Origin: Rhodoferax sp.
GTDB taxonomy: Bacteria; Pseudomonadota; Gammaproteobacteria; Burkholderiales; Burkholderiaceae_C
Direction of reading: 5' to 3'
NCBI RefSeq assembly: GCF_028689295.1
Contig: NZ_JAQTWL010000001.1
Coordinates: 124,001 to 188,000 of the forward strand
DNA: 64,000 nt
Shown here: one piece after another, positions 40,009 through 64,000 of the stretch
Layout of the letters: each line of letters starts with the position of its first letter
Position numbering within the stretch: position 1 is the stretch's first letter
Position numbers and translations under genes: made by a program
Notes under the pieces: generated by a model
Databases searched by the model: none
The model's input: the letters and a program-made list of their open reading frames with translations, nothing else
Told to the model about the DNA's origin: nothing

Positions 40009-40056
40009 CCGCTATTGCTGATGGCTCGGATGGTGAGTAAAACGGAAAGAGACTAC

Positions 40057-45657: not shown

Positions 45658-45659
45658 AC

Positions 45660-45677
45660 ATCAAATTACAATTTGAT
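45660..45677. promoter_or_regulatory. Inverted repeat, probable operator of the ArsR-type regulator
   Basis: ATCAAATTACAATTTGAT is a perfect 7-4-7 inverted repeat located 50 bp before the regulator start and 3 bp after the fbpB stop. Position and symmetry suit autoregulation by an ArsR-family dimer. It is A/T-rich and distinct from the surrounding sequence. Confidence 0.6.
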
Positions 45678-45726
45678 CCGTCAAGCCCGACGTGCCCCCA
45701 TCGAAGCAATGATAAGGACTCCCTTC

Positions 45727-46071
45727 ATGCCAATTCAGTCGTCCACCACTGACACGCCAAAAACGGTCAAAACCGACCAGACATTTGAGTCGGCCGCTGA
45801 CTTGTTTCGTGTCATGTCGGCACCGATGCGGCTCAAGATCATCAATTGCCTGTGCGATGGCGAAAAGAATGTGAGCTACCTGCTGACGCAGGTCAAGACC
45901 ACCCAGCCCAACATGTCGCAGCACCTCAACACCTTGTACCAGGCCGGTATTTTGGGTAAACGCCGTGAAGGCGTGCAAATTTTTTACCGTGTCATCGACC
46001 AGCGCATTGTCTCGATCTGTGAGGCGGTGTGCCATGAAATCGACAGCAAGACGACCAGCCTGCCAGCTTGA
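45727..46071 (+). CDS. ArsR-family repressor, possible sulfane-sulfur sensor (SqrR/BigR-like)
   Basis: A 114-residue winged-helix regulator: VMSAPMRLKIINCLCDGEKNV, the recognition helix TTQPNMSQHLNTLYQAGIL, then the wing RREGVQIFYRVID. Cysteines at 41 and 43 and at 98 and 102 lie near positions where SqrR/BigR proteins use two cysteines to sense persulfides; C41-x-C43-D also resembles the ArsR metal site. ATG at 45727 follows AAGGACT. Its place directly before tusA and other sulfur genes favours a sulfur signal, but a metal ligand is possible. Confidence 0.85.
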   Translation: MPIQSSTTDTPKTVKTDQTFESAADLFRVMSAPMRLKIINCLCDGEKNVSYLLTQVKTTQPNMSQHLNTLYQAGILGKRREGVQIFYRVIDQRIVSICEAVCHEIDSKTTSLPA

Positions 46072-46088
46072 CTGATCTCGCGGTCACA

Positions 46089-46104
46089 TAGCCCATATGG
46101 GCTA
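46089..46104. promoter_or_regulatory. 16-bp perfect palindrome upstream of tusA
   Basis: TAGCCCATATGGGCTA is fully self-complementary and lies between the regulator gene and tusA, about 140 bp before the tusA start. A close variant, TAGCCCAAATGGGTAG, lies upstream of dsrA at 55296-55311. Sharing by two sulfur transcription units suggests a common regulator. Confidence 0.55.
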
Positions 46105-46243
46105 CCTGGCCCCACCCTTTGCGGTGATAGACGCTGGTGTCTGGGTCAACAAAAATCAATAGACTGCAACCTGCCGTCCTTTTCGGGGAATGGCGTTTGG
46201 ATCTATATTTCGGCTGCAAGCCATTAACTTACGGAGATATCCC

Positions 46244-46471
46244 ATGGAATTTAACAAAGAATTTGACGCGTCCGGCCTGTCTTGCCCGTTGCCCATTGTC
46301 AAAACCAAAAAAGCGCTGGCTGACATGACTTCGGGGCAAATCCTGAAGGTGATCGCCACCGACCCTGGTTCAGTCTGCGACATGGCTGCTTTTGCCGAGC
46401 AAACCGGCAATGACCTGCTGGAGCAGGGCAGCGAAAACAGCAAATTCGTGTTTTTCCTCAAGAAAGCCTGA
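46244..46471 (+). CDS. tusA: Sulfur carrier protein TusA
   Basis: A 75-residue sulfurtransferase of the TusA/SirA family that carries persulfide on the cysteine of the C-P-x-P motif (GLSCPLPIVKTKKAL). In sulfur oxidisers TusA passes sulfane sulfur from DsrE2 or rhodaneses to DsrEFH. ATG at 46244 follows ACGGAG; longer in-frame codons upstream are not conserved. It starts the run tusA-dsrE2-periplasmic protein-yeeE-trx-tusE. Confidence 0.96.
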   Translation: MEFNKEFDASGLSCPLPIVKTKKALADMTSGQILKVIATDPGSVCDMAAFAEQTGNDLLEQGSENSKFVFFLKKA

Positions 46472-46510
46472 TCTCCAGGATCACCCTAGAACTTTATTTG
46501 GAGCTCACGC

Positions 46511-46981
46511 ATGGCAGCTAAAAAAATGGCCCTGATCGCCACCAAGGGTACCCTGGACATGGCTTACCCGCCGTTCATTCTGGCCTCCACCGCTGCAGCG
46601 CTGGGCTGGGAAGTGCAGATTTTTTTCACTTTTTACGGCTTGCAGTTGCTGCGCAAGAATCTGGACAGCATCAAGATCAGTCCCCTGGCCAACCCGGCCA
46701 TGCCGATGCCGGTGCCGATGCCCGTGATGGTGCAAATGTTGCCGGGCATGGAGTCCATGGCGACCATGATGATGAAAAACAAGATGAAGTCCAAGGGCGT
46801 GGCTTCACTGCAGGAATTGCGCGACATCTGTCTTGAATCCGATGTCAAGTTTGTGGCTTGCCAGATGACTGTCGATTTGTTTGAATTCGAGACCAGCGAG
46901 TTCATCAAGGAAGTTGAGTACGGCGGTGCTGCCACGTTCATGAAGTTCGCCGGTGAATCCGACGTCTGCCTGTTCATTTAA
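46511..46981 (+). CDS. dsrE2: DsrE2-type sulfurtransferase
   Basis: A 156-residue DsrE/DsrF-fold protein of the DsrE2 type (KMALIATKGTLDMAYPPFIL, ALGWEVQIFFTFYGLQLLRK). A long Met/Pro-rich segment (NPAMPMPVPMPVMVQMLPG) may be a membrane-associating stretch. The region ICLESDVKFVACQMTVDLF provides the conserved cysteine. In other sulfur oxidisers DsrE2 works with TusA, which lies 39 bp upstream. No rhodanese gene is in the cluster. Confidence 0.9.
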   Translation: MAAKKMALIATKGTLDMAYPPFILASTAAALGWEVQIFFTFYGLQLLRKNLDSIKISPLANPAMPMPVPMPVMVQMLPGMESMATMMMKNKMKSKGVASLQELRDICLESDVKFVACQMTVDLFEFETSEFIKEVEYGGAATFMKFAGESDVCLFI

Positions 46982-46984
46982 GCC

Positions 46985-47872
46985 ATGCTGAAAAAACTGT
47001 TTTTGGGCGCAGCCCTGGTGTGTGCGGCGCAGCTCAGCCTGGCCCTGTCGCCTTATACCCACGCCAACAAATTACCGGCGGCCGACCTGCCGACCCAATT
47101 GGCCCAGGTCGAGAAAAAGCTCCAGGCCGAAGGCTTTACCGTGCTGGGCCAGCACACGCCCAAGGCCATCGCCGGACGGGCCAGCATAATCGTGTCAGAC
47201 CCGGCTTTGTTGGCTGCCATTCGCGCCTCCGGTCCCGGCAGCGGCATCGTCGCGGCAGGTATTCGCGTCGGCATCAGCAGCGACGGCAGCGTGTCTTACA
47301 TGAATCCTGACTACTGGTACCGGGCTTATCTGCGTGGCAAGTTCGCCGGGGCGCAAGATGCGGTCAAGTCGGTGCAGCAACGACTGGTGAAGGCGCTGGG
47401 CGAAGGGACTGGTTTCGGTGGCGATGTGCCGCAGGAGCAGTTGACCGACTACCGCTATATGTTTGGCATGGAGCGCTTTGATTCCGCCAATTCCGAAGTT
47501 GGCAGCTATGCCACTTTTGACGATGCGCTCAAGGCGGTGCAGGGCAACCTGGCACAAGCCTTGGGCGATACCCGCAAAGTCTATGAAGTGCTGATGCCAG
47601 CGCAGAAAATGGCCGTGTTCGGTGTCGCCATGAACAGCGCCAGTGACGGCGAAGGCTGGTGGGTCAACAAGATCGGCACCGATTTTCCGGCAGCCTTGCC
47701 TTATGAGCTGTTCATTGTTGACAACAAGGTCTATGCCCTGTACGCCCGCTACCGCATTGCCCTGGCCTGGCCCGCTTTGGGCATGGGGCAATTCATGACC
47801 ATCATCAATGCACCTGAGGCAATCCGCAACACGATGGTGCGTTTGGCAACAGCCAGTGCATCAGGTAAATAA
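46985..47872 (+). CDS. Periplasmic DUF302-like protein
   Basis: A 295-residue precursor with a signal peptide (KKLFLGAALVCAAQLSLALS). The first part (LAQVEKKLQAEGFTVLGQHT) resembles the start of DUF302-type domains; the rest (SYMNPDYWYRAYLRGKFAGA, GYATFDDALKAVQGNLAQAL-like) is unassigned. The mature part has no cysteine, so it is unlikely to carry sulfur covalently. It begins 3 bp after dsrE2 and lies before the YeeE transporter, so a role at the outside of sulfur import is plausible. Confidence 0.75.
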   Translation: MLKKLFLGAALVCAAQLSLALSPYTHANKLPAADLPTQLAQVEKKLQAEGFTVLGQHTPKAIAGRASIIVSDPALLAAIRASGPGSGIVAAGIRVGISSDGSVSYMNPDYWYRAYLRGKFAGAQDAVKSVQQRLVKALGEGTGFGGDVPQEQLTDYRYMFGMERFDSANSEVGSYATFDDALKAVQGNLAQALGDTRKVYEVLMPAQKMAVFGVAMNSASDGEGWWVNKIGTDFPAALPYELFIVDNKVYALYARYRIALAWPALGMGQFMTIINAPEAIRNTMVRLATASASGK

Positions 47873-47895
47873 ACAAACTGCCCCGGGAGTTTCTG

Positions 47896-49011
47896 ATGAC
47901 AGAAGCAACGAATCTGGCTAGCGTGGTGGTTTGGGGCGGTCTTGCGCTGGGGATTTTTTTTGGCGCTATCGCCAACAAAATCAACTTTTGCACCATGGGC
48001 GCCATTTCGGACGTTGTCAACATGGAGCACTGGGGCCGCATGCGCATGTGGCTGCTGGTCATTGCCGTGGCGCTGATAGGTAGCAGCCTGCTGCACTACT
48101 TTGGCCAGGTCGATTTGAACAAGTCAATTTACCAGCGTCCGATCCTGCCCTGGCTGTCCCTGCTGCTGGGCGGCACCTTGTTTGGCGTCGGCATGACGCT
48201 GGCTGGCGGCTGCGTCAACAAGAACCTGATTCGGGTTGGCGGTGGCAATTTGCGCTCCCTGGTGGTCCTCATTTTTGTCGCCATTTCTGCCTATATGACG
48301 ATCAAGGGCTTGTTCGGTCAGTGGCGCGCCGCTTACCTTGACCCAGTCAATATCGACCTGTCAACACTTGGCTTGCAGAATCAATCCCTGCCAGCCCTGG
48401 TGAGCAAACTGACCGGCATATCAGACGGCGCAGCGTTGCTGACCTGTGCCTTTGTGATCGGCTTGGCGTTGCTGGTGTTCGTGTTCATGAACGCTCGCTT
48501 TAGAAGCAAGCTGGCGCCGATATGGGGTTCAGTCGTTTTGGGCTTACTCGTCGTCGCGGCCTGGTATCTGAGCGGGCACATTGGCTACGGTGAAAACCCG
48601 GACACGCTGGAGACGGTCTATTTTGCAACCAATACGCGAACCATCGAGTCACTCAGTTTTGTCGCTCCCACCGCCTATAGTCTCGAGTTGTTGATGCTGT
48701 GGACCGATCAATCGCTCAAGGTGACTTTCGGCGTGGCCACGGCCATCGGTGTCGGATTGGGCTCATGGGCCTATGCCTTGACAACGCGCAAATTCATCTG
48801 GAAAGGTGAGGGATTCGCATCATTTGATGATTTGCGAGCCCAGCTCTTCGGGGCCGTGCTGATGGGTTTTGGCGGCGTGACCGCCATGGGGTGCACCATT
48901 GGACAAGGCTTGTCAGGCATTTCGACGCTTTCCATGGGTTCCTTCATTGCGTTGTTCGGCATCATCTGCGGTGCTGTGGCAACGATGAAATACCAGGTTT
49001 GGCGTGCCTGA
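47896..49011 (+). CDS. YeeE/YedE-family sulfur transporter
   Basis: A 371-residue inner-membrane protein with about nine to ten hydrophobic segments. Duplicated halves have cysteine-bearing motifs as in thiosulfate-channel YeeE: NKINFCTMGAISD, LAGGCVNKNLIR and TAMGCTIGQGLSG. Family members import thiosulfate or another sulfane compound by relaying it between cysteines. Its place between tusA and thioredoxin suggests that the imported sulfur is handed to TusA or reduced. Confidence 0.92.
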   Translation: MTEATNLASVVVWGGLALGIFFGAIANKINFCTMGAISDVVNMEHWGRMRMWLLVIAVALIGSSLLHYFGQVDLNKSIYQRPILPWLSLLLGGTLFGVGMTLAGGCVNKNLIRVGGGNLRSLVVLIFVAISAYMTIKGLFGQWRAAYLDPVNIDLSTLGLQNQSLPALVSKLTGISDGAALLTCAFVIGLALLVFVFMNARFRSKLAPIWGSVVLGLLVVAAWYLSGHIGYGENPDTLETVYFATNTRTIESLSFVAPTAYSLELLMLWTDQSLKVTFGVATAIGVGLGSWAYALTTRKFIWKGEGFASFDDLRAQLFGAVLMGFGGVTAMGCTIGQGLSGISTLSMGSFIALFGIICGAVATMKYQVWRA

Positions 49012-49039
49012 GCCGGGCGCCCCATGGTGATCAGTATCA

Positions 49040-49417
49040 ATGGCGTTCATTGAAGATGTCACCGAGGGCAACTTTGACGAGCGGGTGCTCGCCGGCTCCC
49101 ACCAAGTTCCGGTCGTGCTTGACATTGGCGCTGACTGGTGCAGCCCATGCCGGATGTTGACCCCTTTGCTTGAGCGATTGGCCAACGACTACGGCGGTCA
49201 GTTTGTATTGGCGAAAGTGGATGCGGATGAAAACATGCGCATTGCAGGCAGGCATCAAGCCAAAGGCTTTCCAACCGTGATTGCATACAGCAAAGGGGCG
49301 GTGACCGACCGTTTTCACGGCATGCAGACTGAAGGGTTTTTGCGCCGTTTTCTTGACCAACTAATGGCGCATCATGCGTCCCAACCCCATTCTGGCAAGC
49401 CAGATGGACCCGACTGA
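49040..49417 (+). CDS. Thioredoxin-family protein
   Basis: A 125-residue cytoplasmic thioredoxin with the redox motif WCSPC instead of WCGPC and the cis-proline GFPTVIAYSKG. The C-terminal extension after the fold is short and polar (HHASQPHSGKPDGPD). The location in the sulfur operon suggests release of sulfur from a carrier or reduction of a persulfide. It starts 28 bp after yeeE. It is not the housekeeping TrxA, judging by motif and context. Confidence 0.9.
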   Translation: MAFIEDVTEGNFDERVLAGSHQVPVVLDIGADWCSPCRMLTPLLERLANDYGGQFVLAKVDADENMRIAGRHQAKGFPTVIAYSKGAVTDRFHGMQTEGFLRRFLDQLMAHHASQPHSGKPDGPD

Positions 49418-49453
49418 AAAGTCAATGACACCTGCACTTAAGAGACTCCCAAA

Positions 49454-49747
49454 ATGAACTTACCTGAACGCGACGGCGACGGTTATCTCACCGACATGGG
49501 CGCCTGGACTGAAGAAATAGGCCGAGCCATGGCGGCTGCCGACGGCTATGAGCTTGACGATGTGAAGTGGTCGCACATCCTCAAGGCGCGCGCTTATTAC
49601 GACGAGTTTGGCAGCGTGCCGCCGATCCGGAAATTTGCCAAATATATCGAGGAAGAGCAGAACAGCGTCTTCAAACTCTGGATGACAGGTCCGATGAAAC
49701 CCATCACCAAGTACGGCGGTCTGCCCAAGCCCACGGGCTGCGTTTAG
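49454..49747 (+). CDS. tusE: TusE/DsrC-family protein with single C-terminal cysteine
   Basis: A 97-residue DsrC-fold protein. The penultimate Cys96 (LPKPTGCV) is retained, but the second DsrC cysteine ten residues earlier is replaced (TKYGG where DsrC has CKIAG). This is the TusE-like pattern, able to accept sulfur but not to form the DsrC trisulfide-type bridge. It is the last gene of the tusA-led operon, ending 2 bp from a convergent gene. True dsrC is at 59040. Confidence 0.9.
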   Translation: MNLPERDGDGYLTDMGAWTEEIGRAMAAADGYELDDVKWSHILKARAYYDEFGSVPPIRKFAKYIEEEQNSVFKLWMTGPMKPITKYGGLPKPTGCV

Positions 49748-49749
49748 GT

Positions 49750-50193
49750 TTATGGGCCTGCCGGTGCCCGGCGCCGGATTTGCCACGCGGCGATATGTTC
49801 GACAACGGTCTGCCAGGGTAGATCGAGCAAACTCTCAAACCGGCTGTGTGCCAACTGCACCATGGCGTGCACATCGGCGTCGGGCGCTGCCAGCGCTGCT
49901 TGCAGTCCCTGGAGTCCGCCACAGCTCAGCTTCATCGCTTTGATGTGAGGAATCTCTGCAGCCGGGCGCGGCAGCCGCAAGGCAAAGGTGGCGCGCTCGT
50001 AAAACAGGTCTTTCAAGGTGCTGCAATTGATGTGGGCCACCGCCAGCGTGCAGGCCACCACCTCGCGCTCGGCCAGCGCTTGGCGCCGGGCCAGGCTGCA
50101 ACTGGCGCAACCCGCCAGAATCGCTTTGGCAAAGACGCAGGGGTTGGGATTGAGCCGCTCGCGTGAGGCATGGAAGGCCGCTTCATCGACCAC
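49750..50193 (-). CDS. Conserved cysteine-rich hypothetical protein
   Basis: A 147-residue protein starting at GTG behind a GAGG. Six cysteines are visible at 19, 29, 32, 48, 57 and 91 (NPCVFAKAILAGCASCSLA, VVACTLAVAHINC, KLSCGG), a pattern suggesting an Fe-S or zinc site. There is no signal peptide or membrane segment. I recall relatives in other sulfur-oxidising betaproteobacteria but no known function. It is the last gene of the nine-gene minus-strand operon beside dsrA. Confidence 0.75.
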   Translation of the reverse strand: MVDEAAFHASRERLNPNPCVFAKAILAGCASCSLARRQALAEREVVACTLAVAHINCSTLKDLFYERATFALRLPRPAAEIPHIKAMKLSCGGLQGLQAALAAPDADVHAMVQLAHSRFESLLDLPWQTVVEHIAAWQIRRRAPAGP

Positions 50194-50202
50194 CGCGCCG
50201 CC

Positions 50203-50421
50203 TCAGTCGTCGCCCTTGGGGCCGGCCGTGCGCACCTGGCACAGCAGGTCTTCGGCCTGCAGCGGGTTGTCGGCAAAAATCACCTTGACTTTTTCCGAGG
50301 CTGGCAAGTCGAGCTCCAGCCGCAGCACCTTGGCTTGTTTGGACGCCTCGGCAAAACTCGCGAAGACGCTGAGTTGCTCAAACTGGGCAAAAGGTTTGAT
50401 GCGGTAGATGTAGTAAGGCAT
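50203..50421 (-). CDS. Small conserved hypothetical protein
   Basis: A 72-residue protein (PYYIYRIKPFAQFEQLSVFA, SFAEASKQAKVLRLELDLP, VIFADNPLQAEDLL). It looks like a compact alpha/beta domain with an acidic tail. It lies 9 bp upstream of the cysteine-rich gene and probably belongs to the same operon. No motif gives a function. Its companion genes suggest a redox or regulatory role. Confidence 0.7.
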   Translation of the reverse strand: MPYYIYRIKPFAQFEQLSVFASFAEASKQAKVLRLELDLPASEKVKVIFADNPLQAEDLLCQVRTAGPKGDD

Positions 50422-50454
50422 GGTGCAAATGGGGTGAGGTTGATCGCGGCGACT

Positions 50455-50853
50455 TCAGATGTAATGCTTGGAAGCGCGGCGGCGCCCGGGTAGCGCCTTT
50501 TGAATGATGACGCCGCGCACCGGCGACAGATCTGCGATGGGGTCATCGGCAAAGGCCGGATTCAGGGCGTGCAGCAGCCAGCCTGCCTCGGTGCGCAGCA
50601 GTTGCCTGAAGGTCCACTGCTCCTGATGCCAGGCCAGCACGTAGGAGCCGTCACGTGCGAGACCTTCGGGCTCGATGAGGATGATCTCGCCTTCCAGAAA
50701 CTCCGGTGCCATGCTCTGGCCCTGCACCATCAGCGCAAAAGACTCGCCACCAGCGCAATCGGGCAAAACCGCGTCGAAGGCCGTCTGGGAGGCCTCGGCA
50801 TGGCTTGCCGCGACTTGGCTGGGTCGGATGGTTTCATAAGTTTGCGCTTGCAT
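50455..50853 (-). CDS. LexA/S24-fold protein, probably non-catalytic
   Basis: A 132-residue protein with the S24 peptidase fold of LexA and UmuD (MVQGQSMAPEFLEGEIILIE), including the Ser47 of the G-x-S-M motif. The partner Lys appears replaced by Arg83 (WTFRQLL), so self-cleavage is doubtful. There is no DNA-binding helix-turn-helix. ATG at 50853 avoids overlap with the reductase gene; an in-frame ATG at 50937 is unlikely. Function unknown. Confidence 0.75.
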   Translation of the reverse strand: MQAQTYETIRPSQVAASHAEASQTAFDAVLPDCAGGESFALMVQGQSMAPEFLEGEIILIEPEGLARDGSYVLAWHQEQWTFRQLLRTEAGWLLHALNPAFADDPIADLSPVRGVIIQKALPGRRRASKHYI

Positions 50854-50881
50854 GCCGAAATCAGTCAATGGGTTGTAAAAA

Positions 50882-52357
50882 TCAAAGCACCAACGATGAA
50901 ATCTGGGCTTCGGCGACCCCCGCAGCGCGCAATTCATCGTGCAGTGTCATGACGAATTCGGCCGGCCCCGCCAGGTAAAAGTCGCAGTCGATGTCAAACA
51001 AATCGGCGCGCATGGCCTGGGCCATTTGCCACGCCCCCAAGGCTGCATCGGGGTGGGTGATCAGCTCGTACTCGAATTGATCGAGGGCTTCCGACCAGGC
51101 ACGGCACTGGTTGCTGTAAAAATGACCATCAGGCCGGGTGGCCAGCCAGAACAGCGACAGCGACGGCGCGGCATCGAGCGACAAGGCGTGCTCGATCAGG
51201 CTCTTGACCGGACCAAAGCCGGCATCGCAGGCGGCAAAAACCAGCGGGCGGTGGCCCTCTGCCAGCACGAATTCGCCGCTCGGACCCAGCACTGTGACGG
51301 TGGCGCCTTGCTTGATGTCACCGGCAAAAAGGCGTTGGGCAAAACTGTCGGTCTCGTTGCGGGTGATGAAGAACAGCAGATTGCGTTCGTCGCAGGGACA
51401 ACTGGCCAGCGGATAACTGGCAGACACGTCGTCATGCCCCGGCAAGGTCCAGCCCAGTTGCACCGACTGGCCGGCCAGAAAGCGCAAGCGGTGGCTGCGC
51501 GGGGTTTGCAGGTGCAGCAACAGCGTGTCGGGGGCCAGTCGCGTGATGGCGCGCACCTGGGTGGCGATCAGTTGCACGGGGATGTCACGCGGGTCGCTGG
51601 CTTCGAGCAATTCCAGCGTGAGCTCGCTGCTGGCTGCGGTATGGCAGCACATCAGGGTGTAGCCTTGGGCTTTTTCGGCTTCGGACAGGGGGTAATCAAA
51701 GTGCTGGGTCTTGGCCACTTCACCCGAGATGACGCGCACCTTGCACATGCCGCAACTGCCGTTGCCGCAGCCGTAATTGAGTTTGAGCCCGGCGTGCAGG
51801 CCGGCCTGCAACAGGTTGGCGCGGCCTTCCACGGCGAACTGGTGTCCGCTGGGACGCACCGTGACCTCGGCGGTCATCACTTTGAGCATATCGTCCATCA
51901 CTTCCAGTAGGTCAACCGACTCGGTGGCCAGCACCTTGGCCAGCCCATGCGTGATTTGTTGTTCCAGTGCCAGCCAGCTGGCGGCGCCGGGGTGCTGGCT
52001 CAGTTGCTGGCGGATTTCCTGTTGCAGGGCCACCACCAGCTCGTGGTAACGCTGCAGGTGTTTGCGCACATCGGCGAGCTCCTGGCTTTGCGCGAACAGG
52101 CGTTGCGCCAGCACTTCCTGGCTTGGCAGCATGCGTTCGCGCACCCGTTTGCCAAAGGCCTCGTCGCGAATTTGCGAGACCCGCTCCAGCAGCCCCGACT
52201 CTTCGAGTTTTGCATCCGGGTATAGCTTCAGCAACACGTCGGTCGAAACCCAGCCGTCGTTCAAGACCAGAGTGCCGTCACGCACTTGTTGCTGCAGCGC
52301 GCCGCGCGCCACGCCCAGTAACTGGGCGGCACGCCAAATGCTGACCTTGTGACTCAT
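50882..52357 (-). CDS. HTH-[2Fe-2S] ferredoxin-FNR-type reductase fusion
   Basis: A 491-residue multidomain protein. Residues 1-50 resemble a MerR-like or excisionase helix-turn-helix (SIWRAAQLLGVARGALQQQV). Residues about 55-160 form a helical, coiled-coil-like linker. Residues 165-250 are a plant-type ferredoxin with Cys197, 202, 205 and 237/238. From about 270 a flavin/NAD(P) reductase follows (ending DFYLAGPAEFVMTLHDEL). The C-terminal part matches ring-hydroxylating and CDP-sugar reductases. DNA-binding on top of that is unusual. It overlaps the dioxygenase gene by 4 bp. Confidence 0.85.
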   Translation of the reverse strand: MSHKVSIWRAAQLLGVARGALQQQVRDGTLVLNDGWVSTDVLLKLYPDAKLEESGLLERVSQIRDEAFGKRVRERMLPSQEVLAQRLFAQSQELADVRKHLQRYHELVVALQQEIRQQLSQHPGAASWLALEQQITHGLAKVLATESVDLLEVMDDMLKVMTAEVTVRPSGHQFAVEGRANLLQAGLHAGLKLNYGCGNGSCGMCKVRVISGEVAKTQHFDYPLSEAEKAQGYTLMCCHTAASSELTLELLEASDPRDIPVQLIATQVRAITRLAPDTLLLHLQTPRSHRLRFLAGQSVQLGWTLPGHDDVSASYPLASCPCDERNLLFFITRNETDSFAQRLFAGDIKQGATVTVLGPSGEFVLAEGHRPLVFAACDAGFGPVKSLIEHALSLDAAPSLSLFWLATRPDGHFYSNQCRAWSEALDQFEYELITHPDAALGAWQMAQAMRADLFDIDCDFYLAGPAEFVMTLHDELRAAGVAEAQISSLVL

Positions 52358-53253
52358 GGTGCGACGGCTCCTGAAGTGGGCCGGGCCAACCGGTCGAGAT
52401 AACGCGCCCGGTAGAGCAAGCGGGGCTGCTGCGGGTCGTCGGTAAAACCGGCGCGGTCGTGCAGCACGTTGTTGCACACCAGGCCCATGCCGGCTTCGAG
52501 CGTCAAGCGAAAAATATGGCGGCTGTTGCTGGCCAAAAAATCAGCCAGGAAGGTCACGGCCTCACGCGTGGCGGCATCGTCCTTCCAGACAATGCTGCGC
52601 GTCCGCGCCGTGTAGCGCATGTTCAATTGGCCGCTGGTGGTATCGACCATGAACACCGGCCCGGCTTGCTCGGGGCGGGCTATGCCGTCATCATCAATCC
52701 GTTCTGGAATGGTCATGGCATCCGGCGCCATCAGCGCGCGCACCCAGTCGGGGTTGGCTTCGCGCAGCGCAACGTAAGCCATTTCGTGATTCATCAGCGC
52801 AGTTTCGCCACCCTGGCGCGCCGGACGCACGCAATGCAGCACCATGGCACGGATGGGGCGGGTCTCGGGTTGGTAGTAACCGTCAGTGTGCCACTTGATG
52901 GGGCGGTTGGTGTAGGGGATGAAGGCCGGGCGGTCGCCCACAGGAGCGGCCACGGCAATCGGCGAAATGCCGTCTTCGTCGGCGAGCCAGTTGCCGTCGA
53001 GCTGGTGCAGGCCAAGCTGGCGCGCCAGGTGCACCGGAATGGCCTTGTCTTCGGCGATGACCGGGCTGCGGTAGATGGCCATGTTGGCCACGGCGCAGCG
53101 CTGCAACAGCGCGTCGCGCTCGCTGGCGGACAAGGCCCGGGGATCGGCCACATCGACAACCAGGTCGGCCGCCTGGCGCGGCTGACTGGCCAATTTTGCG
53201 TCGCGCCAGCGCTGGTAGGCGCCGGCTTGTGTCAGGTCAAAAGGATGACTCAT
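52354..53253 (-). CDS. TauD/TfdA-family Fe(II)/2-oxoglutarate dioxygenase
   Basis: A 299-residue dioxygenase. The facial triad is likely H-x-D in KWHTDGYY and the distal His in NNVLHDRAGF; the 2-oxoglutarate Arg follows (PRLLYRARYLDR). The general form resembles gamma-butyrobetaine or taurine-type enzymes, but the substrate is unknown. It overlaps the downstream reductase by 4 bp, so the reductase may supply electrons, or the pair may oxidise a sulfur compound; both are inference. Confidence 0.88.
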   Translation of the reverse strand: MSHPFDLTQAGAYQRWRDAKLASQPRQAADLVVDVADPRALSASERDALLQRCAVANMAIYRSPVIAEDKAIPVHLARQLGLHQLDGNWLADEDGISPIAVAAPVGDRPAFIPYTNRPIKWHTDGYYQPETRPIRAMVLHCVRPARQGGETALMNHEMAYVALREANPDWVRALMAPDAMTIPERIDDDGIARPEQAGPVFMVDTTSGQLNMRYTARTRSIVWKDDAATREAVTFLADFLASNSRHIFRLTLEAGMGLVCNNVLHDRAGFTDDPQQPRLLYRARYLDRLARPTSGAVAP

Positions 53254-53259
53254 GGCAGC

Positions 53260-53877
53260 TCAATCACCCGTGTTCGCAGCGCGGGACGCGCGCGCCGGCC
53301 GGGGCTCGGTGGACAACACCCCGTCCATGCCGCGCTGGATCATGTCGAGGGCGTCGGGTACTTCGCTGGCCATGATCTGGTCAACCACCCAGCGCTGGTC
53401 CTTTTGCGGCATCAGCGCTTCGATGCGGTGCCCGAGGTAGCGTACAAAGGCAAAGTCCGGCCCCTTGGCATCAAAGCCAAAGTCGGCATAGTGCTCTGAC
53501 AATTCGTTGAACAGGTCGATGAACTGCTCGTAGTGGCTGGCTTGTCCGGCGGCTGGCTCACCCATCAGGCCGTCTTCGTTGTCTTGCAAAATCTGCGCCA
53601 CGCGCTGCACCAGCGCAGTCATGAATTCGCCGCGCTCGGCGTCAACCATGCGCGCATGCGCCATGCGGTCGAGCACCTGGGTCAAAAATACCAGCACCTC
53701 GCGGGTGAAATCAAAATACTGCGGCCCGACCTCGATGTCAAATCGCGCGCTGCGCATTTGCTTGAGCATGTTTTGCGCCACGCGCCAGGTGATGAAGGCC
53801 ATGGCGCTGGCGTTTTGCTGCGGCGTCTTTGCGGCGCTATCGTGAAACCACTGGCTCTTGATTCTCAACTTGGCCAT
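53260..53877 (-). CDS. Helical hypothetical protein of the dsr accessory operon
   Basis: A 205-residue, mostly alpha-helical soluble protein with no cysteine and no known motif (WRVAQNMLKQMRSARFDIEV, MTALVQRVAQILQDNEDGLM, HRIEALMPQKDQRWVVDQIM). The C terminus is Arg/Ala-rich. It is 6 bp upstream of the dioxygenase and 51 bp downstream of the DsrC-like gene. I recall relatives in other dsr-containing betaproteobacteria but no function. Confidence 0.75.
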   Translation of the reverse strand: MAKLRIKSQWFHDSAAKTPQQNASAMAFITWRVAQNMLKQMRSARFDIEVGPQYFDFTREVLVFLTQVLDRMAHARMVDAERGEFMTALVQRVAQILQDNEDGLMGEPAAGQASHYEQFIDLFNELSEHYADFGFDAKGPDFAFVRYLGHRIEALMPQKDQRWVVDQIMASEVPDALDMIQRGMDGVLSTEPRPARASRAANTGD

Positions 53878-53928
53878 AGGTCGCCCCGAAGGTGGCAGGG
53901 CTGCGAGGACGGCAAACGCAGGGGCATA

Positions 53929-54258
53929 TCAGTAACCGCCCTTGCCCAGGGGTTGCGGCAGTGCCGCCACTTTGGGGCCTTGCTTGGCGGGACCAATGGG
54001 GAACAAGTCGTAGAGGTACTTGCTGTCAACGCCCGGATGAACTTCGGCAAAGCTTTTCAGCATGTTGCGGAAGTTGGGGGTATGGCCGTGCTCGCGGTAT
54101 TGCTCGCGCAGGTAGTTGATCACTTCCCAATGCGCATCGGTCAGGCTGATGTTTTCCGCAGCGGCAATGACGCGGACCGCGTCATCTTCATACAGTGGCT
54201 CCAACAAAAAACCTTGCTCGTCGGTTTCGTATTCAGTGCCATTGATGGTGTAGCTCAT
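53929..54258 (-). CDS. DsrC-fold protein lacking both redox cysteines
   Basis: A 109-residue DsrC homologue (LTDAHWEVINYLREQYREHG, DSKYLYDLFPIGPAKQG). Where DsrC has ACKIAGLPKPTGC, this reads GPKVAALPQPLGK, so the two sulfur-carrying cysteines are gone (Cys to Pro and to Lys). It cannot carry sulfur like DsrC and may be regulatory, as suggested for some RspA-like paralogues. It lies two genes downstream of a 79-residue orphan and next to a Cas6-like gene, in the operon divergent from dsrA. Confidence 0.9.
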   Translation of the reverse strand: MSYTINGTEYETDEQGFLLEPLYEDDAVRVIAAAENISLTDAHWEVINYLREQYREHGHTPNFRNMLKSFAEVHPGVDSKYLYDLFPIGPAKQGPKVAALPQPLGKGGY

Positions 54259-54291
54259 TGAATCTCTCCTTGTTTCAGTTGATGAATTTGG

Positions 54292-54906
54292 TCACACCGC
54301 GGCGGCGGATTTGTGCGGAATGAAAATGCCGCAGCCCAGCAGCCGGTGCGGGCCGATGCCGTGCTGTTGCAGGTGCAGCGAGGGCTCCGGGGCCAATCCG
54401 TGCAGCATCAGGCTGAAGGTGGTCACCACACCACTGGCAAGCGTCATGCGCTGGCGCTTGCCGCACACGCGCTCGCCGCCGATGCCCAGATCAGTCAGCT
54501 CCCGGGTGACGGCAGCCATGAAAGCCACCTCGTCGGTGTCGGCCGCCACCACGTGGTAGGCATAGAGCGTGGTGTGCGGCACCAGCTCGCGCACATGCGG
54601 CGCGTCCAGATGCAGGGCGTGGCCCGCCACGTCGATGTCAAGGCCGGGGCCGTCCAGCAGTTCGCTGGCGCGCGGGCGTGACAAGCGCAGCAACAGTTTG
54701 GTCCGGCGCGACAGCATGGCCTGCGGCTCGGTGCCGGGCACCAGCTTGATGCCCTGCACGCCGGCCAGCGGCTCGCCTTCCAGCCAGGGCCAGGCGCTGC
54801 ACAAGGCGTCTCTGAGTGGCTGGGCATGGTCGCGCGGCAGAAATCGCCCGCTGATGGGGAAAATCAGATCGACCGTGGAGCAGAGTTCAGGGGCTGCGGT
54901 GGTCAT
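54292..54906 (-). CDS. Cas6-like RAMP protein (Cmx6/MYXAN type), no CRISPR nearby
   Basis: A 204-residue protein with the RAMP fold. The N terminus VDLIFPISGRFLPRDHAQPL and the late GIGGERVCGKRQRMTL resemble MYXAN-type Cas6. The C-terminal glycine-rich loop G183-I-G-x5-G-C-G193 (GIGPHRLLGCGIFIP) matches the G-x-G-x5-G-x-G RNA-binding loop. Normally Cas6 cuts pre-crRNA; here no repeats or other cas genes are visible. It overlaps the upstream 79-residue gene by 4 bp. RNA binding is likely; cleavage is unproven. Confidence 0.8.
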   Translation of the reverse strand: MTTAAPELCSTVDLIFPISGRFLPRDHAQPLRDALCSAWPWLEGEPLAGVQGIKLVPGTEPQAMLSRRTKLLLRLSRPRASELLDGPGLDIDVAGHALHLDAPHVRELVPHTTLYAYHVVAADTDEVAFMAAVTRELTDLGIGGERVCGKRQRMTLASGVVTTFSLMLHGLAPEPSLHLQQHGIGPHRLLGCGIFIPHKSAAAV

Positions 54907-55142
54907 ACAGGTTCTTGCGAAGGGGTTTGGTTGTCAGGCTGTTCCGATGCCCAGCGCAGCAAGGCCTCGCCCCATTGCCGGGCCGACTGGGGGTCGATGT
55001 CAAACACGGTGAAGCGGCTTTTCTCACGGATGCGGGTGCGCAGCAGGCTCATGCCGCCGCCTTCATAGTCCAGTTGTTGCAGCTCAATGACCTGCGCACT
55101 CACGGGAATGGTGAATTTAGCCAACGGTGTCAGGGTGGTCAT
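54903..55142 (-). CDS. Small hypothetical protein, first gene of dsr accessory operon
   Basis: A 79-residue protein (AKFTIPVSAQVIELQQLDYE, GGGMSLLRTRIREKSRFTVF). It looks like a small beta-rich fold followed by a helix, and I vaguely recall a domain of unknown function (DUF6967-like) in relatives. The ATG overlaps nothing upstream and is the first gene read leftward from the dsrA promoter region. It overlaps the Cas6-like gene by 4 bp. Confidence 0.7.
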   Translation of the reverse strand: MTTLTPLAKFTIPVSAQVIELQQLDYEGGGMSLLRTRIREKSRFTVFDIDPQSARQWGEALLRWASEQPDNQTPSQEPV

Positions 55143-55468
55143 GGTGTGGGTGGTGGCTCAATAAGAAAACTGAAAAACAAACTGGCAGGCGGTGTTGCCA
55201 TGGGGCCATGGGCCCGCATCGCCAGGCAACGCGCATACCGCTATTGGGCGCAAAGTGGGCCCCGGTCGTCTATTACCGGGACGGGTGGGGTGATATAGCC
55301 CAAATGGGTAGCCCCAAATACCCAACGAGGGGGATAGCAGAGGGGGCAGCGCCAATCGTACTATTTGCCTCACGGTTGACGCAGTAGCCCGGCATGCAGG
55401 CCACTGAGTAACACACCCGGTTCGACGATACAGCGCAAGACTTGCGCACCCTTGACAGGAGACACTCT
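55143..55468. promoter_or_regulatory. Divergent regulatory region of dsrA and accessory operon
   Basis: About 326 bases without a gene. Inverted repeats include CCCGGT-N8-ACCGGG at 55261-55280, TAGCCCAAATGGGTAG at 55296-55311 (variant of the tusA palindrome), and GGGTA-N8-TACCC at 55306-55323. No convincing -35/-10 pair was found. AGGAG just before 55469 is the dsrA ribosome binding site. Confidence 0.55.
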
Positions 55469-56746
55469 ATGAGCATTAAGCAACACGATACCCCCATGCT
55501 TGACCAGCTTGAAAGCGGTCCATGGCCCAGCTTTGTCACCGGTCTGAAACGACTGGCCAAGGACAGCGAGTACATGACCGACCTGATGGGTCAGCTGGAG
55601 CACTCGTACAAAACCCGCAAGGGCTACTGGAAGGGTGGCACGGTGGGCGTGTTTGGCTACGGCGGTGGCGTTATTCCCCGTTTTTCCGAAGTCGCTGAAA
55701 TGTTTCCGGCTTCCAAGGAATTCCACACCCTGCGCATCATGCCGACTGCGGGAATGCACTACACCTCTGATTTGCTGCGAAATATGTGCGACATCTGGGA
55801 ACGTCATGGCTCCGGTCTGATCGCCTTTCACGGCCAGTCGGGCGACATCATGTTCCAGGGTGCCAGCACGGCCAACGTGCAGGGTGCTTTTGACGAGCTC
55901 AATGAACTCGGCTTCGACCTCGGTGGCGCCGGCCCGGCCGTGCGCACCAGCATGTCCTGTGTCGGTGCGGCACGCTGCGAGCAGTCCTGCTTTGACGAGG
56001 CGCGTGCCCATCGCCAGGTGCTCAACACGTTCCTGGACGACATGCACCGTCCGGCCTTGCCCTACAAGTTCAAGTTCAAGTTCTCGGGCTGTCCCAACGA
56101 CTGCATGAACTCGATCCAGCGCGCCGACATGGCGGTCATTGGCACCTGGCGCGACAACATCCGCACCGACGAAGCCCTGGCGCGCAAATGGTTTGAGAAA
56201 CACGGCATGACCGAGTTGGTCAACGACGTGGTCAGCCGTTGCCCGACCAAAGCCATCATGCTCAAGGAAATCAAGGATGTCGCCACTGGTGACAAGATCT
56301 CCAGCGTCAAGCTCAGCGACAGCCATTGCCTTGAAATCGACAACGGCAACTGCGTGCGCTGCATGCACTGCATTAACGTCATGACCGGCGCGCTGGCCAC
56401 CGGCGTTGACAAGGGCGTCACGGTGCTGATGGGCGGCAAGCGCACCCTCAAGATCGGCGACCTGATGGGCACCGTGGTCATTCCATTCATGCCCATGAAG
56501 ACCGACGAAGACTACGAGGCGCTGGTGGAGCTGGGCCAGAAGTCGATCGACTTCTTCGCCGAAAACGCGCTGGAGCACGAGCGCACCGGCGAGATGATCG
56601 AGCGCATCGGTCTGATCAATTTCCTCGAAGGCATCGGCGTCGAGATTGACCCCAGCATGGTCGCCACGCCACGCACCAACCCCTACGTCCGCACCGACGG
56701 CTGGGATGATGAAGTGGCCAGGATCAACGCCCGCAAAGCGGCCTGA
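55469..56746 (+). CDS. dsrA: Reverse dissimilatory sulfite reductase, alpha subunit
   Basis: DsrA with DsrB forms the siroheme [4Fe-4S] enzyme that, in the oxidative direction, converts DsrC-bound sulfur to sulfite in the cytoplasm. The 425-residue product has the siroheme/cluster motifs CVGAARC (C-x5-C) and GCPNDC (C-x3-C), and a ferredoxin insertion CVRCMHCINVMTGA. ATG at 55469 follows AGGAG. The gene order dsrABEFHCMKLJ and the presence of dsrEFH and dsrL indicate the oxidising (rdsr) type, not sulfate reduction. Confidence 0.97.
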   Translation: MSIKQHDTPMLDQLESGPWPSFVTGLKRLAKDSEYMTDLMGQLEHSYKTRKGYWKGGTVGVFGYGGGVIPRFSEVAEMFPASKEFHTLRIMPTAGMHYTSDLLRNMCDIWERHGSGLIAFHGQSGDIMFQGASTANVQGAFDELNELGFDLGGAGPAVRTSMSCVGAARCEQSCFDEARAHRQVLNTFLDDMHRPALPYKFKFKFSGCPNDCMNSIQRADMAVIGTWRDNIRTDEALARKWFEKHGMTELVNDVVSRCPTKAIMLKEIKDVATGDKISSVKLSDSHCLEIDNGNCVRCMHCINVMTGALATGVDKGVTVLMGGKRTLKIGDLMGTVVIPFMPMKTDEDYEALVELGQKSIDFFAENALEHERTGEMIERIGLINFLEGIGVEIDPSMVATPRTNPYVRTDGWDDEVARINARKAA

Positions 56747-56782
56747 AGCCGGCTAGTCCTCAACTGATTAAGAAAGATCACC

Positions 56783-57853
56783 ATGGCAACTATGCGCACC
56801 CCCATTGAGAGCGGCGTCCCGGATAACAAGCCGTTCCTGCACCCCCTGATGGCCAAAAATTATGGCAACTGGAAGTACCATGACCGGCCGCGTCCGGGCG
56901 TGCTGCACCATGTGGCCCACAGCGGCGACCAGATCTGGACGGTTCGTGCCGGCACGCAGCGGCAAATGGACCTGTTCACCATCCGCAAGCTGTGCGACAT
57001 TGCCGACACTTATGCCGACGGCCATGTGCGCTTTACCATTCGCTCCAACATCGAGTACATGGTGTCGGATCCGGCGCGCGTCGAGCCGCTGGTGGAGGCG
57101 CTGACCAACAGTGGTTTCCCGGTTGGCGGCACCGGCAACTCGGTGTCTTCCATTGCCCACACCCAGGGCTGGCTGCACTGCGACATTCCGGGCACCGACG
57201 CCTCGGGCGCCGTCAAGGCCCTGATGGATGAATTGCACGCCGAGTTCATCAAGGAAGACATGCCCAACCGCGTGCACCTGTCCACTTCCTGCTGCGAGAT
57301 CAACTGCGGCGGCCAGGCCGACATCGCCATCGTCATGCAGCACACCAAGCCGCCCAAGATCAACCACGACCTGGTGGCCAACATGTGCGAGCGCCCGACC
57401 GTGGTGGCGCGCTGCCCTGTGGCAGCCATCCGCCCGGCCATGGTCAACGGCCGGCCTTCGCTGGAAATTGACGAGTCCAAATGTATGTGCTGCGGTGCCT
57501 GCTTCCCGCCCTGCCCACCGATGCAGATCAATGACCCCGAGCACAGCAAACTGGCGATCTGGGTGGGCGGCAAAAATTCGAATGCGCGCGGCAAGCCGAC
57601 ATTCATGAAGATGGTGGCCTCGGGCCTGCCCAACAACCCGCCGCGCTGGCCTGAAGTGTCAGCCATGGTCAAGAAAATTCTCTACACCTACAAGGAAGAC
57701 GCGCGCTCCTGGGAGCGGGTGTCGGACTGGATCGAGCGCATCGGCTGGCCCGCATTTTTTGAAAAGTGCGACCTGCCGTTCACCAAGTACCTGATCGACG
57801 ACTGGCGCGGTTCGCGTTCCAGCCTGAACGCATCGACCCACATCCGTTTCTAA
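56783..57853 (+). CDS. dsrB: Reverse dissimilatory sulfite reductase, beta subunit
   Basis: The 356-residue partner of DsrA. Cluster motif TSCCEINCGGQADIAIV, the region CERPTVVARCPVAAIRP and a ferredoxin domain CMCCGACFPPCPPMQ are clear. Residues at the N terminus (HPLMAKNYGNWKYHDRPRPG) match the DsrB start. ATG at 56783 comes 36 bp after dsrA. The two are certainly co-transcribed and form an alpha2beta2 enzyme. Confidence 0.97.
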   Translation: MATMRTPIESGVPDNKPFLHPLMAKNYGNWKYHDRPRPGVLHHVAHSGDQIWTVRAGTQRQMDLFTIRKLCDIADTYADGHVRFTIRSNIEYMVSDPARVEPLVEALTNSGFPVGGTGNSVSSIAHTQGWLHCDIPGTDASGAVKALMDELHAEFIKEDMPNRVHLSTSCCEINCGGQADIAIVMQHTKPPKINHDLVANMCERPTVVARCPVAAIRPAMVNGRPSLEIDESKCMCCGACFPPCPPMQINDPEHSKLAIWVGGKNSNARGKPTFMKMVASGLPNNPPRWPEVSAMVKKILYTYKEDARSWERVSDWIERIGWPAFFEKCDLPFTKYLIDDWRGSRSSLNASTHIRF

Positions 57854-57903
57854 ACAGTTGAGGATAGAGCTAAAGATCTGTCCCGCAAAGTATCAGGAGT
57901 ACC

Positions 57904-58263
57904 ATGAAATTCGGCATCCTCGTGAACGAAGGCCCCTACACGCACCAAGCGTCCGACACCGCTTACCAGTTCGTGGTGGCTGCTTTGGCCAAGGGCCACA
58001 CGATCCAGCGCGTGTTTTTTTACCATGATGGCGTCAACAACGCGACCCGGCTCACCGAGCCGCCGCAGGATGACCGTCACATCGTCAACCGCTGGTCGGC
58101 GCTGGCGGCAGAGCACAAGGTCGACTTGGTGGTGTGCGTCGCCGCCGCCTTGCGCCGCGGCATCAAGGACGAGGTGCTGGCCCCCGGCTTCCGTATTTCG
58201 GGTCTGGGACAACTGGTGGACAGCGGCATCAAGGCGGATCGCCTGGTCACGTTTGGCGATTAA
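57904..58263 (+). CDS. dsrE: Sulfur relay protein DsrE
   Basis: A 119-residue subunit of the DsrE2F2H2 hexamer. The active cysteine is Cys78 (LVVCVAAALRRGIKDE), exactly where the Allochromatium protein has it. It accepts sulfur, probably from TusA, and passes it to DsrC. It is 50 bp after dsrB and 23 bp before dsrF. The presence of dsrEFH distinguishes sulfur oxidisers from sulfate reducers. Confidence 0.96.
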   Translation: MKFGILVNEGPYTHQASDTAYQFVVAALAKGHTIQRVFFYHDGVNNATRLTEPPQDDRHIVNRWSALAAEHKVDLVVCVAAALRRGIKDEVLAPGFRISGLGQLVDSGIKADRLVTFGD

Positions 58264-58286
58264 TCCAGTAAAGAGAAGAACACACC

Positions 58287-58682
58287 ATGAGTGAACAAGC
58301 AACAACTGTAGCCAGCGGCCCCAAGGTGAAGAAATTCATGTTTGTCAACCGCAAAGCGCCCTACGGCACCATCTACGCCCTGGAAAGTCTGGAGGTGGTC
58401 TTGATCACCGCTACCTTTGACCAGGACGTGAGTCTGGTGTTTATGGACGATGGCGTTTATGAACTGGTCAAGGGCCAGCAGACCAAGGGCATCGGCATCA
58501 AGAACTTTTCGCCGAGCTACCGGGCACTGGAAGGCTATGACATCGAGAAGCTGTACGTTGATCAGGCGTCGCTCGATCAACGCGGTTTGTCCGAGGCCGA
58601 TCTGTTGGTTCCGGTCGAGGTGCTCGACGATCAGCAAATGGGTGAGCTGATGGCGCAACAGGATGTGATTCTGAGCTTTTAA
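58287..58682 (+). CDS. dsrF: Sulfur relay protein DsrF
   Basis: A 131-residue subunit of the DsrEFH complex with the typical start KVKKFMFVNRKAPYGTIYA and the DVSLVFMDDGVYELVKGQQ core. It carries no cysteine, as usual for DsrF, and is a structural partner. It is encoded between dsrE and dsrH. Confidence 0.96.
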   Translation: MSEQATTVASGPKVKKFMFVNRKAPYGTIYALESLEVVLITATFDQDVSLVFMDDGVYELVKGQQTKGIGIKNFSPSYRALEGYDIEKLYVDQASLDQRGLSEADLLVPVEVLDDQQMGELMAQQDVILSF

Positions 58683-58698
58683 GAAACAAGGACCAACC

Positions 58699-58998
58699 AT
58701 GTTGCACATCATCAACAAATCCCCTTTCGACACCAACGCGCTCGACACCTGCCTGCGAATGGCGCAGCCGGGCCAGGCGGTGCTGCTGATCGAAGACGCC
58801 GTTTACGCTGCCACGCAGGGCAGCGCCACGGCCGCTCGCATGCGTGAAGCTGGCGCCAAACTCAGCCTGTATGTGTTGCAGCCCGACCTCGATGCCCGTG
58901 GCATGACGGCCAAACTGCAGGACGGCATCACGCCGGTGGACTACGCCGGCTTTGTCGATCTGGTCGAGAAATACCCCACCTCCCAATCGTGGCTTTGA
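58699..58998 (+). CDS. dsrH: Sulfur relay protein DsrH
   Basis: A 99-residue subunit of DsrEFH; MLHIINKSPFDTNALDTCLR holds the conserved cysteine (about position 18) near the N terminus and QAVLLIEDAVYAA follows. It ends in the family tail DLVEKYPTSQSWL. It is 16 bp after dsrF. Homologous to TusB of the tRNA thiolation pathway, but context places it in sulfur oxidation. Confidence 0.95.
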   Translation: MLHIINKSPFDTNALDTCLRMAQPGQAVLLIEDAVYAATQGSATAARMREAGAKLSLYVLQPDLDARGMTAKLQDGITPVDYAGFVDLVEKYPTSQSWL

Positions 58999-59039
58999 GC
59001 CGATCCTGGCAAATCAATTATTTTTAACTGGAGAACACT

Positions 59040-59372
59040 ATGAGCTTTGAAATCAACGGCAAGACCTACGACACCGACGAAGAGGGTTATCTGCTGAACC
59101 TGGCCGAATGGACCACCGAGGCGGCCGCGCATCTGGCCGAAGAAGAAAAAGTGCCGCTCACCGACAACCATTGGGAAGTGATCAACTTCCTGCGCGAGTA
59201 CTACAACGAGTACCAGATTGCTCCGGCGGTGCGCGTACTGACCAAGGCCATTGGCAAAAAATTTGGCGAAGAAAAAGGCAACAGCAAATACCTGTACGAC
59301 CTGTTCCCCTATGGCCCGGCCAAACAGGCTTGCAAGATTGCCGGTTTGCCCAAACCCACCGGCTGTATCTGA
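59040..59372 (+). CDS. dsrC: Sulfur carrier DsrC
   Basis: The 110-residue swinging-arm substrate of DsrAB. Both conserved cysteines of the C-terminal arm are present, Cys98 and Cys109 (QACKIAGLPKPTGCI). The DsrC core motif SKYLYDLFPYGPAKQ is intact. It shuttles persulfide sulfur from DsrEFH to DsrAB, and the DsrMKJOP complex is thought to reoxidise it. Two DsrC-like paralogues with missing cysteines lie at 49454 and 53929. Confidence 0.98.
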   Translation: MSFEINGKTYDTDEEGYLLNLAEWTTEAAAHLAEEEKVPLTDNHWEVINFLREYYNEYQIAPAVRVLTKAIGKKFGEEKGNSKYLYDLFPYGPAKQACKIAGLPKPTGCI

Positions 59373-59409
59373 TTTGACGTGAACCTTTAACGAACTTGCA
59401 GGCTCGCCC

Positions 59410-60144: not shown

Positions 60145-60153
60145 GCACACACC

Positions 60154-61647: not shown

Positions 61648-61691
61648 CCCTGCCGTTCATATTTTCAAGCATAAAACCAGGAGACTCCGAC

Positions 61692-63650: not shown

Positions 63651-63654
63651 GCTC

Positions 63655-64000
63655 ATGTTGCGGCGCACATGGTTTTCCTTTGTTCGCCTGTGTCTGGCGC
63701 TTACTGTCGGCCTGGTTTTAGGCGCGGGTTTGACGGCCGTCGCACAGACATCCCCGGCTGGCGCCAGTCAAGGTTTGCAACCCATGATCGAAAAAGCGCG
63801 AGGGGGGCAATGTGTGGAAGAACCCGCGTTCATGCGCCGCAATCACATGAAACTTCTGATACATCAGCGTGATGACACGCTTCGCGGTGGCATTCGCACC
63901 GGCAAGCACTCATTGAAAGCGTGCATTACCTGTCATGCCAGCCAGACCAGTCAAAGCGTGAATGCCGAACCAGGCAATTTTTGTCAGAGTTGCCACAGCT
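63655..64000 (+). CDS. dsrJ: DsrJ, triheme cytochrome c (runs off right edge)
   Basis: The first about 115 codons of the periplasmic triheme subunit of DsrMKJOP. A signal peptide (SFVRLCLALTVGLVLGAGLT) is followed by GQCVEEPAFMRRNHM, which holds the Cys thought to be an unusual heme ligand in DsrJ. Then come two heme-binding motifs, CITCH and CQSCH. The gene starts 4 bp after dsrL and continues past the window, where dsrO and dsrP would be expected. Confidence 0.92.
   Translation, partial: MLRRTWFSFVRLCLALTVGLVLGAGLTAVAQTSPAGASQGLQPMIEKARGGQCVEEPAFMRRNHMKLLIHQRDDTLRGGIRTGKHSLKACITCHASQTSQSVNAEPGNFCQSCHS

Follow-up and report, generated by a model that had tools for sequence, protein, structure and literature searches.

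A conserved gene module divergent from dsrA, with a Cas6 homologue and a cysteine-less DsrC paralogue: a possible controller of reverse Dsr

Nine genes adjoining dsrA in Rhodoferax sp. are described here, together with their distribution among bacterial relatives. They lie in a 64,000-nucleotide stretch of DNA, the window (assembly GCF_028689295.1, contig NZ_JAQTWL010000001.1, positions 124,001 to 188,000), and all coordinates given for the locus are window positions. Among the main routes of sulfur oxidation is reverse (oxidative) Dsr (rDsr), and in the samples searched the module to which these genes belong is roughly as constant a companion of the pathway as the pathway's own core genes. 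The nine open reading frames (ORFs), at 49750-55142, occupy the minus strand and are read away from dsrA, the plus-strand head of dsrABEFHCMKL (table 1). As the initial annotation held, they are tightly packed: two neighbouring pairs overlap by exactly 4 bp (54903-54906 and 52354-52357), and about 6-51 bp separate the others when the S24 gene is taken to begin at 50853. This start was our choice, the ORF listing giving 50937; the dsrA start at 55469 was also set by us. The genes fall into two layers: a five-gene conserved core and a four-gene lineage-specific tail.

Table 1. Features of the locus. Order genomes are the 63 dsrA-bearing genomes of the order sample, window genome excluded; named loci are the 80 loci collected with a TauD alignment.
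Feature	Coordinates	Strand	Layer	Basis and occurrence
DUF6967 protein, 79 aa	54903..55142	-	core	Pfam PF22295, E 3e-28; 51/63 order genomes with dsrA
Cas6 homologue, 204 aa	54292..54906	-	core	PF09559 over full length, E 5e-55; NCBIfam cas6_cmx6 (TIGR02807), 144 bits against a cut-off of 98.85; 57/63 order genomes
Cysteine-less DsrC paralogue, KGGY C-terminus	53929..54258	-	core	PF04358, E 3e-30; TIGR03342, 92 bits
Helical protein, 205 aa	53260..53877	-	core	no Pfam or NCBIfam family
TauD-type 2-oxoglutarate dioxygenase, DsrQ	52354..53253	-	core	PF02668, E 7e-22
Fer2-FAD/NAD reductase	50882..52357	-	tail	PF00111 and BenC-like match; 30/80 named loci, 3/63 order genomes
S24/LexA-fold protein, protease activity probably absent	50455..50853	-	tail	PF00717 (Peptidase_S24), E 5e-16
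72-aa ORF	50203..50421	-	tail	kept in 26/80 named loci
Cysteine-rich ORF, 147 aa	49750..50193	-	tail	21/80 named loci
Tandem inverted-repeat block, operator-like	55298..55338	.	between both divergent units	60-region intergenic alignment; one window match
dsrA, head of the divergent dsr operon	55469..56746	+		ORF and gene order

Family searches bear out the Cas6-like, cysteine-less DsrC, TauD-like and LexA-fold assignments made from the sequence alone. The 79-aa ORF, at first called an orphan, belongs instead to DUF6967, a family of which no mention was found in the literature searched. The supposed HTH-ferredoxin-FNR reductase is indeed a reductase, with a Fer2 domain and a BenC-like FAD/NAD part, and Pfam finds no HTH in it. 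The helical, 72-aa and cysteine-rich ORFs stay orphans, none passing a Pfam cut-off.

The tie between core and dsrA is close. Of 300 genomes from the order, 62 have the helical gene and 64 dsrA, and every helical-positive genome carries dsrA as well. The Cas6 homologue is found in 58 of the 64 dsrA genomes. Its query matched 59 genomes, of which one (G140, E 3e-4) was dropped because it has neither dsrA nor a PF09559 match. In the class sample (274 genomes) the helical gene is present in 90 and dsrA in 94: 85 genomes hold both, five the helical gene alone, nine dsrA alone and 175 neither (Fisher p 1.4e-53, relatedness uncorrected). Four of the five helical-only genomes possess the Cas6 gene, and in one of the five (G425) the contig ends directly behind the module, which suggests an assembly gap. 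Four of the nine dsrA-only genomes have Cas6. The phylum sample (200 genomes) contains dsrA in 46, with the helical protein in the window genome alone; outside that genome, dsrA identity is 45-56% in 43 genomes and 67% in two. The module therefore accompanies rDsr in Gammaproteobacteria, not every dsrA.

Gene order is equally regular. Cas6 and dsrA are divergent in every locus that holds both (57 in the order, 15 in the class, 63 named), and Cas6 shares one strand with the KGGY DsrC gene in all 57, 18 and 67 loci containing the pair. This arrangement is far beyond chance. Class synteny was assessed in 60 of the 90 helical-positive genomes, several of them on short contigs. There the helical gene is often kilobases away or on a separate contig, whereas Cas6 mostly stays near dsrA (exceptions G407, G523, G478, G396 and G356), so co-occurrence is more than hitch-hiking. 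The PF09559 search covered 26 and 41 chosen genomes rather than the entire class sample. Three genomes of only 1.0-1.1 Mb (G338, G440, G552) retain the helical gene, dsrA and Cas6, and have no cas1. The distance matrices for the helical protein, for Cas6 and for DsrA are correlated (Mantel 0.83 and 0.69; further values are 0.79 for DsrB and 0.35 for DsrC), a pattern in keeping with shared descent. Some order genomes carry a second dsrA copy (seven loci: L097, L099, L100, L101, L103, L104, L105), in whose vicinity the module and most dsr genes are absent.

Across the 63 dsr-bearing order genomes the helical gene is kept in 61, Cas6 and KGGY-DsrC in 57 each, DUF6967 in 51 and dsrQ in 49; the core is complete in 36. 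The six genomes without Cas6 are also the six without KGGY-DsrC (G132, G217, G277, G083, G122, G145). One of these, G122, is 86% complete in 600 contigs, G145 is without the entire module, and G132 has at that position a DsrC relative whose tail is of a third type. A second view came from named records. The helical alignment was too poorly conserved to serve as a contig query, and a TauD alignment was used in its stead; 80 loci were kept from at least 584 TauD relatives, with a bias to close kin. Five core genes are present in 59 of these loci, all nine genes in 16, and the core without any tail gene in 36. The nine-gene form occurs in Polaromonas, Rhodoferax, Hydrogenophaga, Hylemonella, Rubrivivax, Ideonella, Azohydromonas, Piscinibacter and Ramlibacter records, among others. 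Tail genes are found mainly in Burkholderiaceae-type records, and Thiobacillus, Gallionella and Sideroxydans records hold the core alone. The initial annotation, which took the nine genes as one unit, thus stands for the dsr-tied core and fails for the tail, which is not co-conserved. It had also held that random occurrence in dsr-free genomes would count against it, and the core is not scattered over such genomes in the samples. TauD alone is not dsr-specific, because eight of the 80 named loci hold it without other module genes (in L258, for example, beside NrdD). Close TauD/DsrQ relatives outside dsr loci adjoin a radical-SAM gene in L258 and L227, and that of L258 also an anaerobic ribonucleotide reductase.

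A further gene belongs to the module in part of its range. A tandem-rhodanese gene lies in the dsr locus of 32 of the 63 order genomes (L062 among such loci), and in all 31 loci that also contain the helical gene it is on the same strand within 870 bp. It is thus a sixth member in about half of the dsrA-bearing order genomes. Thiobacillus denitrificans records L245 and L269 hold it as well; the window core gave no tandem-rhodanese match.

The Cas6 homologue is a true member of its family, with a PDB Cas6 match at E 2e-33 and a lengthwise alignment with type I-B CAST Cas6. The Gly-rich loop is retained. Proteins linked to dsr carry a C-terminal PHK motif (His in 51/57, Lys in 56/57 of the order set) that is missing from five cyanobacterial Cas6 proteins beside cas3, and they form one clade against six outside sequences, with a support of just 0.53. 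No association with cas genes or a repeat array was found, and window positions 30000-64000 hold no array; the gene sits beside dsrA instead. The marker cas1 occurs in 23 of the 64 dsr-bearing order genomes. It is absent from 40 of the 58 with the Cas6 homologue, which is therefore not simply a CRISPR part, and present in five of the six dsrA genomes that have no Cas6. On this distribution a CRISPR part was rejected as the general role. Adjacent to dsrA, array-free and mostly cas1-free, the protein is accordingly classed as a Cas6 homologue, not as a CRISPR component. A search of a phage collection gave no match, and a plasmid search gave eight, all cyanobacterial. In one of the cyanobacterial plasmids, Gloeobacter morelensis pGMOR1 (L287, 2802-8838), a Cas6 homologue is in an operon with PAPS-reductase-like and cupin genes, and no cas gene is annotated for about 5 kb around it; it is perhaps another non-CRISPR Cas6 beside sulfur chemistry.

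The DsrC paralogue is a family member that contains no cysteine in the window protein. Its relatives end in KGGY (56/57, 20/20 and 65/67), so that the C-terminal cysteine of a sulfur carrier is missing; true DsrC proteins at these loci mostly end in GCI or GCV. The GLPxP region of the DsrC arm is kept and the new end is invariant. Cysteine-free DsrC homologues go by the name RspA. In Allochromatium vinosum, DsrC needs Cys111 to make contact with DsrEFH (PMC3397948), and for this reason the KGGY protein should not carry sulfur. Other reports describe dsrC homologues without both cysteines in the Solemya velum symbiont (PMC4287430) and, in A. vinosum, four extra DsrC-family genes, of which Alvin_1508 is down about 7-8-fold on pyrite, with dsrA down about 22-fold (PMC11267869).

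AlphaFold2 models the helical protein with six helices (pLDDT 88.0); comparison of the model with the PDB, in which a TetR/COQ9-like fold was considered, was without clear result, and the sequence search of the PDB gave a best E no better than 0.28. DsrQ keeps the HxD...H metal triad and the 2-oxoglutarate Arg in 49/49 relatives from the order and in every ungapped relative from the class and named sets, and its sequence has no PDB match at 1e-10. In the tail, 28 of 28 relatives of the S24 protein show Arg at the site presumed, by analogy with LexA, to be that of the catalytic Lys; Ser is kept in 23 of 28. The Ser-Lys pair thus seems to be missing, and the protein is probably without protease activity. 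The cysteine-rich protein is modelled confidently (pLDDT 90.7), and its model has no PDB match at E 0.001 or better; C19, C32, C48 and C57 are present in 22/22 sequences and C91 in 21/22.

Between the divergent units lie two inverted repeats, CCC-N4/5-GGG, about 22 bp apart, conserved in 60 aligned regions and unique in the window. The block looks like a shared operator. Weak scores for the motif are unreliable, because these 60 regions also served to train the matrix and the threshold derived from shuffles of sequences shorter than the scanned 630-bp stretches. With that proviso, the motif exceeds the threshold at most betaproteobacterial module loci (exceptions G028, G182, G241 and G271). 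Under the threshold are 14 of the 15 loci from the class sample and all but one of the seven second dsrA copies, the one, G201, scoring weakly above it. It is also above threshold in G217, G277, G132 and G083, all without Cas6 and KGGY-DsrC, and its persistence there led us to reject either protein as the operator binder. As RNA the block folds no better than shuffles (z -1.2). A promoter scan of 55100-55520 found no promoter and one terminator-like site, and an Rfam search of 45000-64000 gave no match.

Two neighbouring regions of the window deserve mention. A second DsrC-family gene of 97 aa with a single terminal Cys (49454-49747, plus strand) converges on the cysteine-rich gene with a 2-bp gap. 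A possible small defence island (37452-42589, plus strand) begins with NA37-like and RelA/SpoT-domain genes, followed by an AAA_15/DUF3696 ATPase (PADLOC NsnB, E 1e-33) and an orphan partner.

Linkage to dsrA, divergence from it, the shared absence of cas6 and cysteine-less dsrC in the order, presence without cas1 and the metal-site residues of the dioxygenase are direct observations. The co-occurrence statistics establish a tie to rDsr, not the function of the module. A role in the control of sulfur oxidation, or in a side branch of it, is still the best reading. We favour, tentatively and as something short of probable, a conserved accessory module that controls rDsr in the Gammaproteobacteria, taken broadly so as to include the betaproteobacteria. 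Control is the simplest reading of an RNA-binding family next to a non-carrying DsrC, and the identical pattern of absence, together with adjacency, suggests that Cas6 and KGGY-DsrC act together. The module would adjust rDsr to the supply of sulfur and oxygen. In such a scheme the KGGY protein would act with the Cas6 homologue as a DsrC mimic; the Cas6 homologue would bind structured RNA, perhaps the dsr transcript, cutting being less sure; DsrQ and, in many lineages, rhodanese may feed or report cytoplasmic sulfur; and the four tail genes could contribute a redox or sensor layer. A more specific version, in which a CRISPR-freed Cas6 and the cysteine-less DsrC form an RNA-binding sensor of the sulfur-relay state that sets rDsr expression, is possible but doubtful.

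Several points weigh against control. Neither the Fisher nor the Mantel test is independent of relatedness, which they ignore or share. Six of 24 Cas6 loci in the class sample have no KGGY-DsrC nearby, so that the pair is not universal there, and the two phylum-sample genomes at 67% identity (G745, G661; alphaproteobacterial-type dsrA) have neither the helical gene nor Cas6, so that rDsr functions without the module. His27 of the Cas6 homologue, guessed from position to be its catalytic residue, is variable (H in 40/57, 23/24 and 28/68), and RNA binding is therefore trusted above cleavage. Rhodanese and dsrQ, finally, fit a purely enzymatic role equally well.

Such a role defines the first rival, a module for sulfur input, which we consider possible though rather unlikely. 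DsrQ would free sulfite from sulfonates, a speculation reported in PMC7596348, rhodanese would mobilize sulfane sulfur and the other proteins would assist. Both genes point to sulfur input: the active-site residues of DsrQ are kept in nearly all relatives, the rhodanese regularly adjoins the helical gene, and DsrE2 is present in 35 of the 80 named loci. Yet dsrQ is absent from 14 of the 63 order genomes, some on cut contigs, most of which retain Cas6, KGGY-DsrC and the helical gene nonetheless; the RNA-binding family and the cysteine-less DsrC are also left unexplained. Sulfonate breakdown as the sole role was rejected since dsrQ is so often missing. Rhodanese is present in 11 of the 14, which leaves room for a broader input role. 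A second rival, unlikely yet to be taken seriously, is gating of DsrAB. The arm of the KGGY protein, a DsrC family member with the GLPxP region and an invariant end, might dock in DsrAB and act there as an assembly factor or as a competitor that transfers nothing, with Cas6 and the helical protein as scaffold or maturation proteins and no part for RNA; the conserved Gly-rich loop of the Cas6 homologue would then go unused. That the Cas6 homologue processes CRISPR RNA, in place or in trans, is very improbable: its family membership and a type III-B locus elsewhere in the window genome (RT-Cas1, Cmr genes, Cas10, about 50 repeat copies, no Cas6 among nine proteins tested, the dsr copy being the genome's sole PF09559 protein in a search limited to this Cas6 family) speak for it, but the cas1 distribution, the array-free window region and the constant position beside dsrA speak against it. 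The type III-B locus (L303, 160-14391, contig C47) also encodes Csx16 and a CARF-TM protein.

If control of rDsr by the module is correct, a Cas6 homologue has a non-CRISPR role and cysteine-less DsrC proteins have a use; in the RNA-sensor version, a CRISPR-type protein would exert RNA-based control of lithotrophic energy metabolism. The helical gene could also help to mark rDsr in Gammaproteobacteria. In the literature searched, in part as listings and passages, no paper was found that connects Cas6 to dsr, and beyond the known dsrQ no role has been assigned to this gene set in the literature found. In Sideroxydans lithotrophicus ES-1 dsr genes are up on thiosulfate; the genes divergent from its dsrA (Slit_1686) are unnamed in the available text (PMC8788666).

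The module can be compared with four known systems. The initial annotation knew of no described function for its combination of genes, and nothing on the combination was found beyond the dioxygenase, a TauD-like gene upstream of dsr already known as dsrQ and attributed to Lenk et al. 2012 in passages of PMC7596348; an excerpt of PMC6018796 terms it of unknown function. The known dsrQ is likewise upstream of dsrA in the opposite direction, and the available part of its account mentions no Cas6, KGGY-DsrC, helical or DUF6967 gene (PMC7596348). With the DsrC/TusE sulfur carriers the KGGY paralogue shares family and C-terminal arm, but KGGY replaces the terminal Cys. Resembling the Tus relay for tRNA thiolation, the module has a DsrC/TusE relative and, in some lineages, a rhodanese near an RNA-binding protein; the KGGY protein, however, has no relay-essential cysteine, and no thiolase gene was seen in the core. 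Type I-MYXAN and I-B Cas6 (PF09559; PDB 8FCJ chain B) resemble the window homologue in full-length match and Gly-rich C-terminal loop, whereas the latter sits in dsr loci, has the PHK motif and forms its own modestly supported branch.

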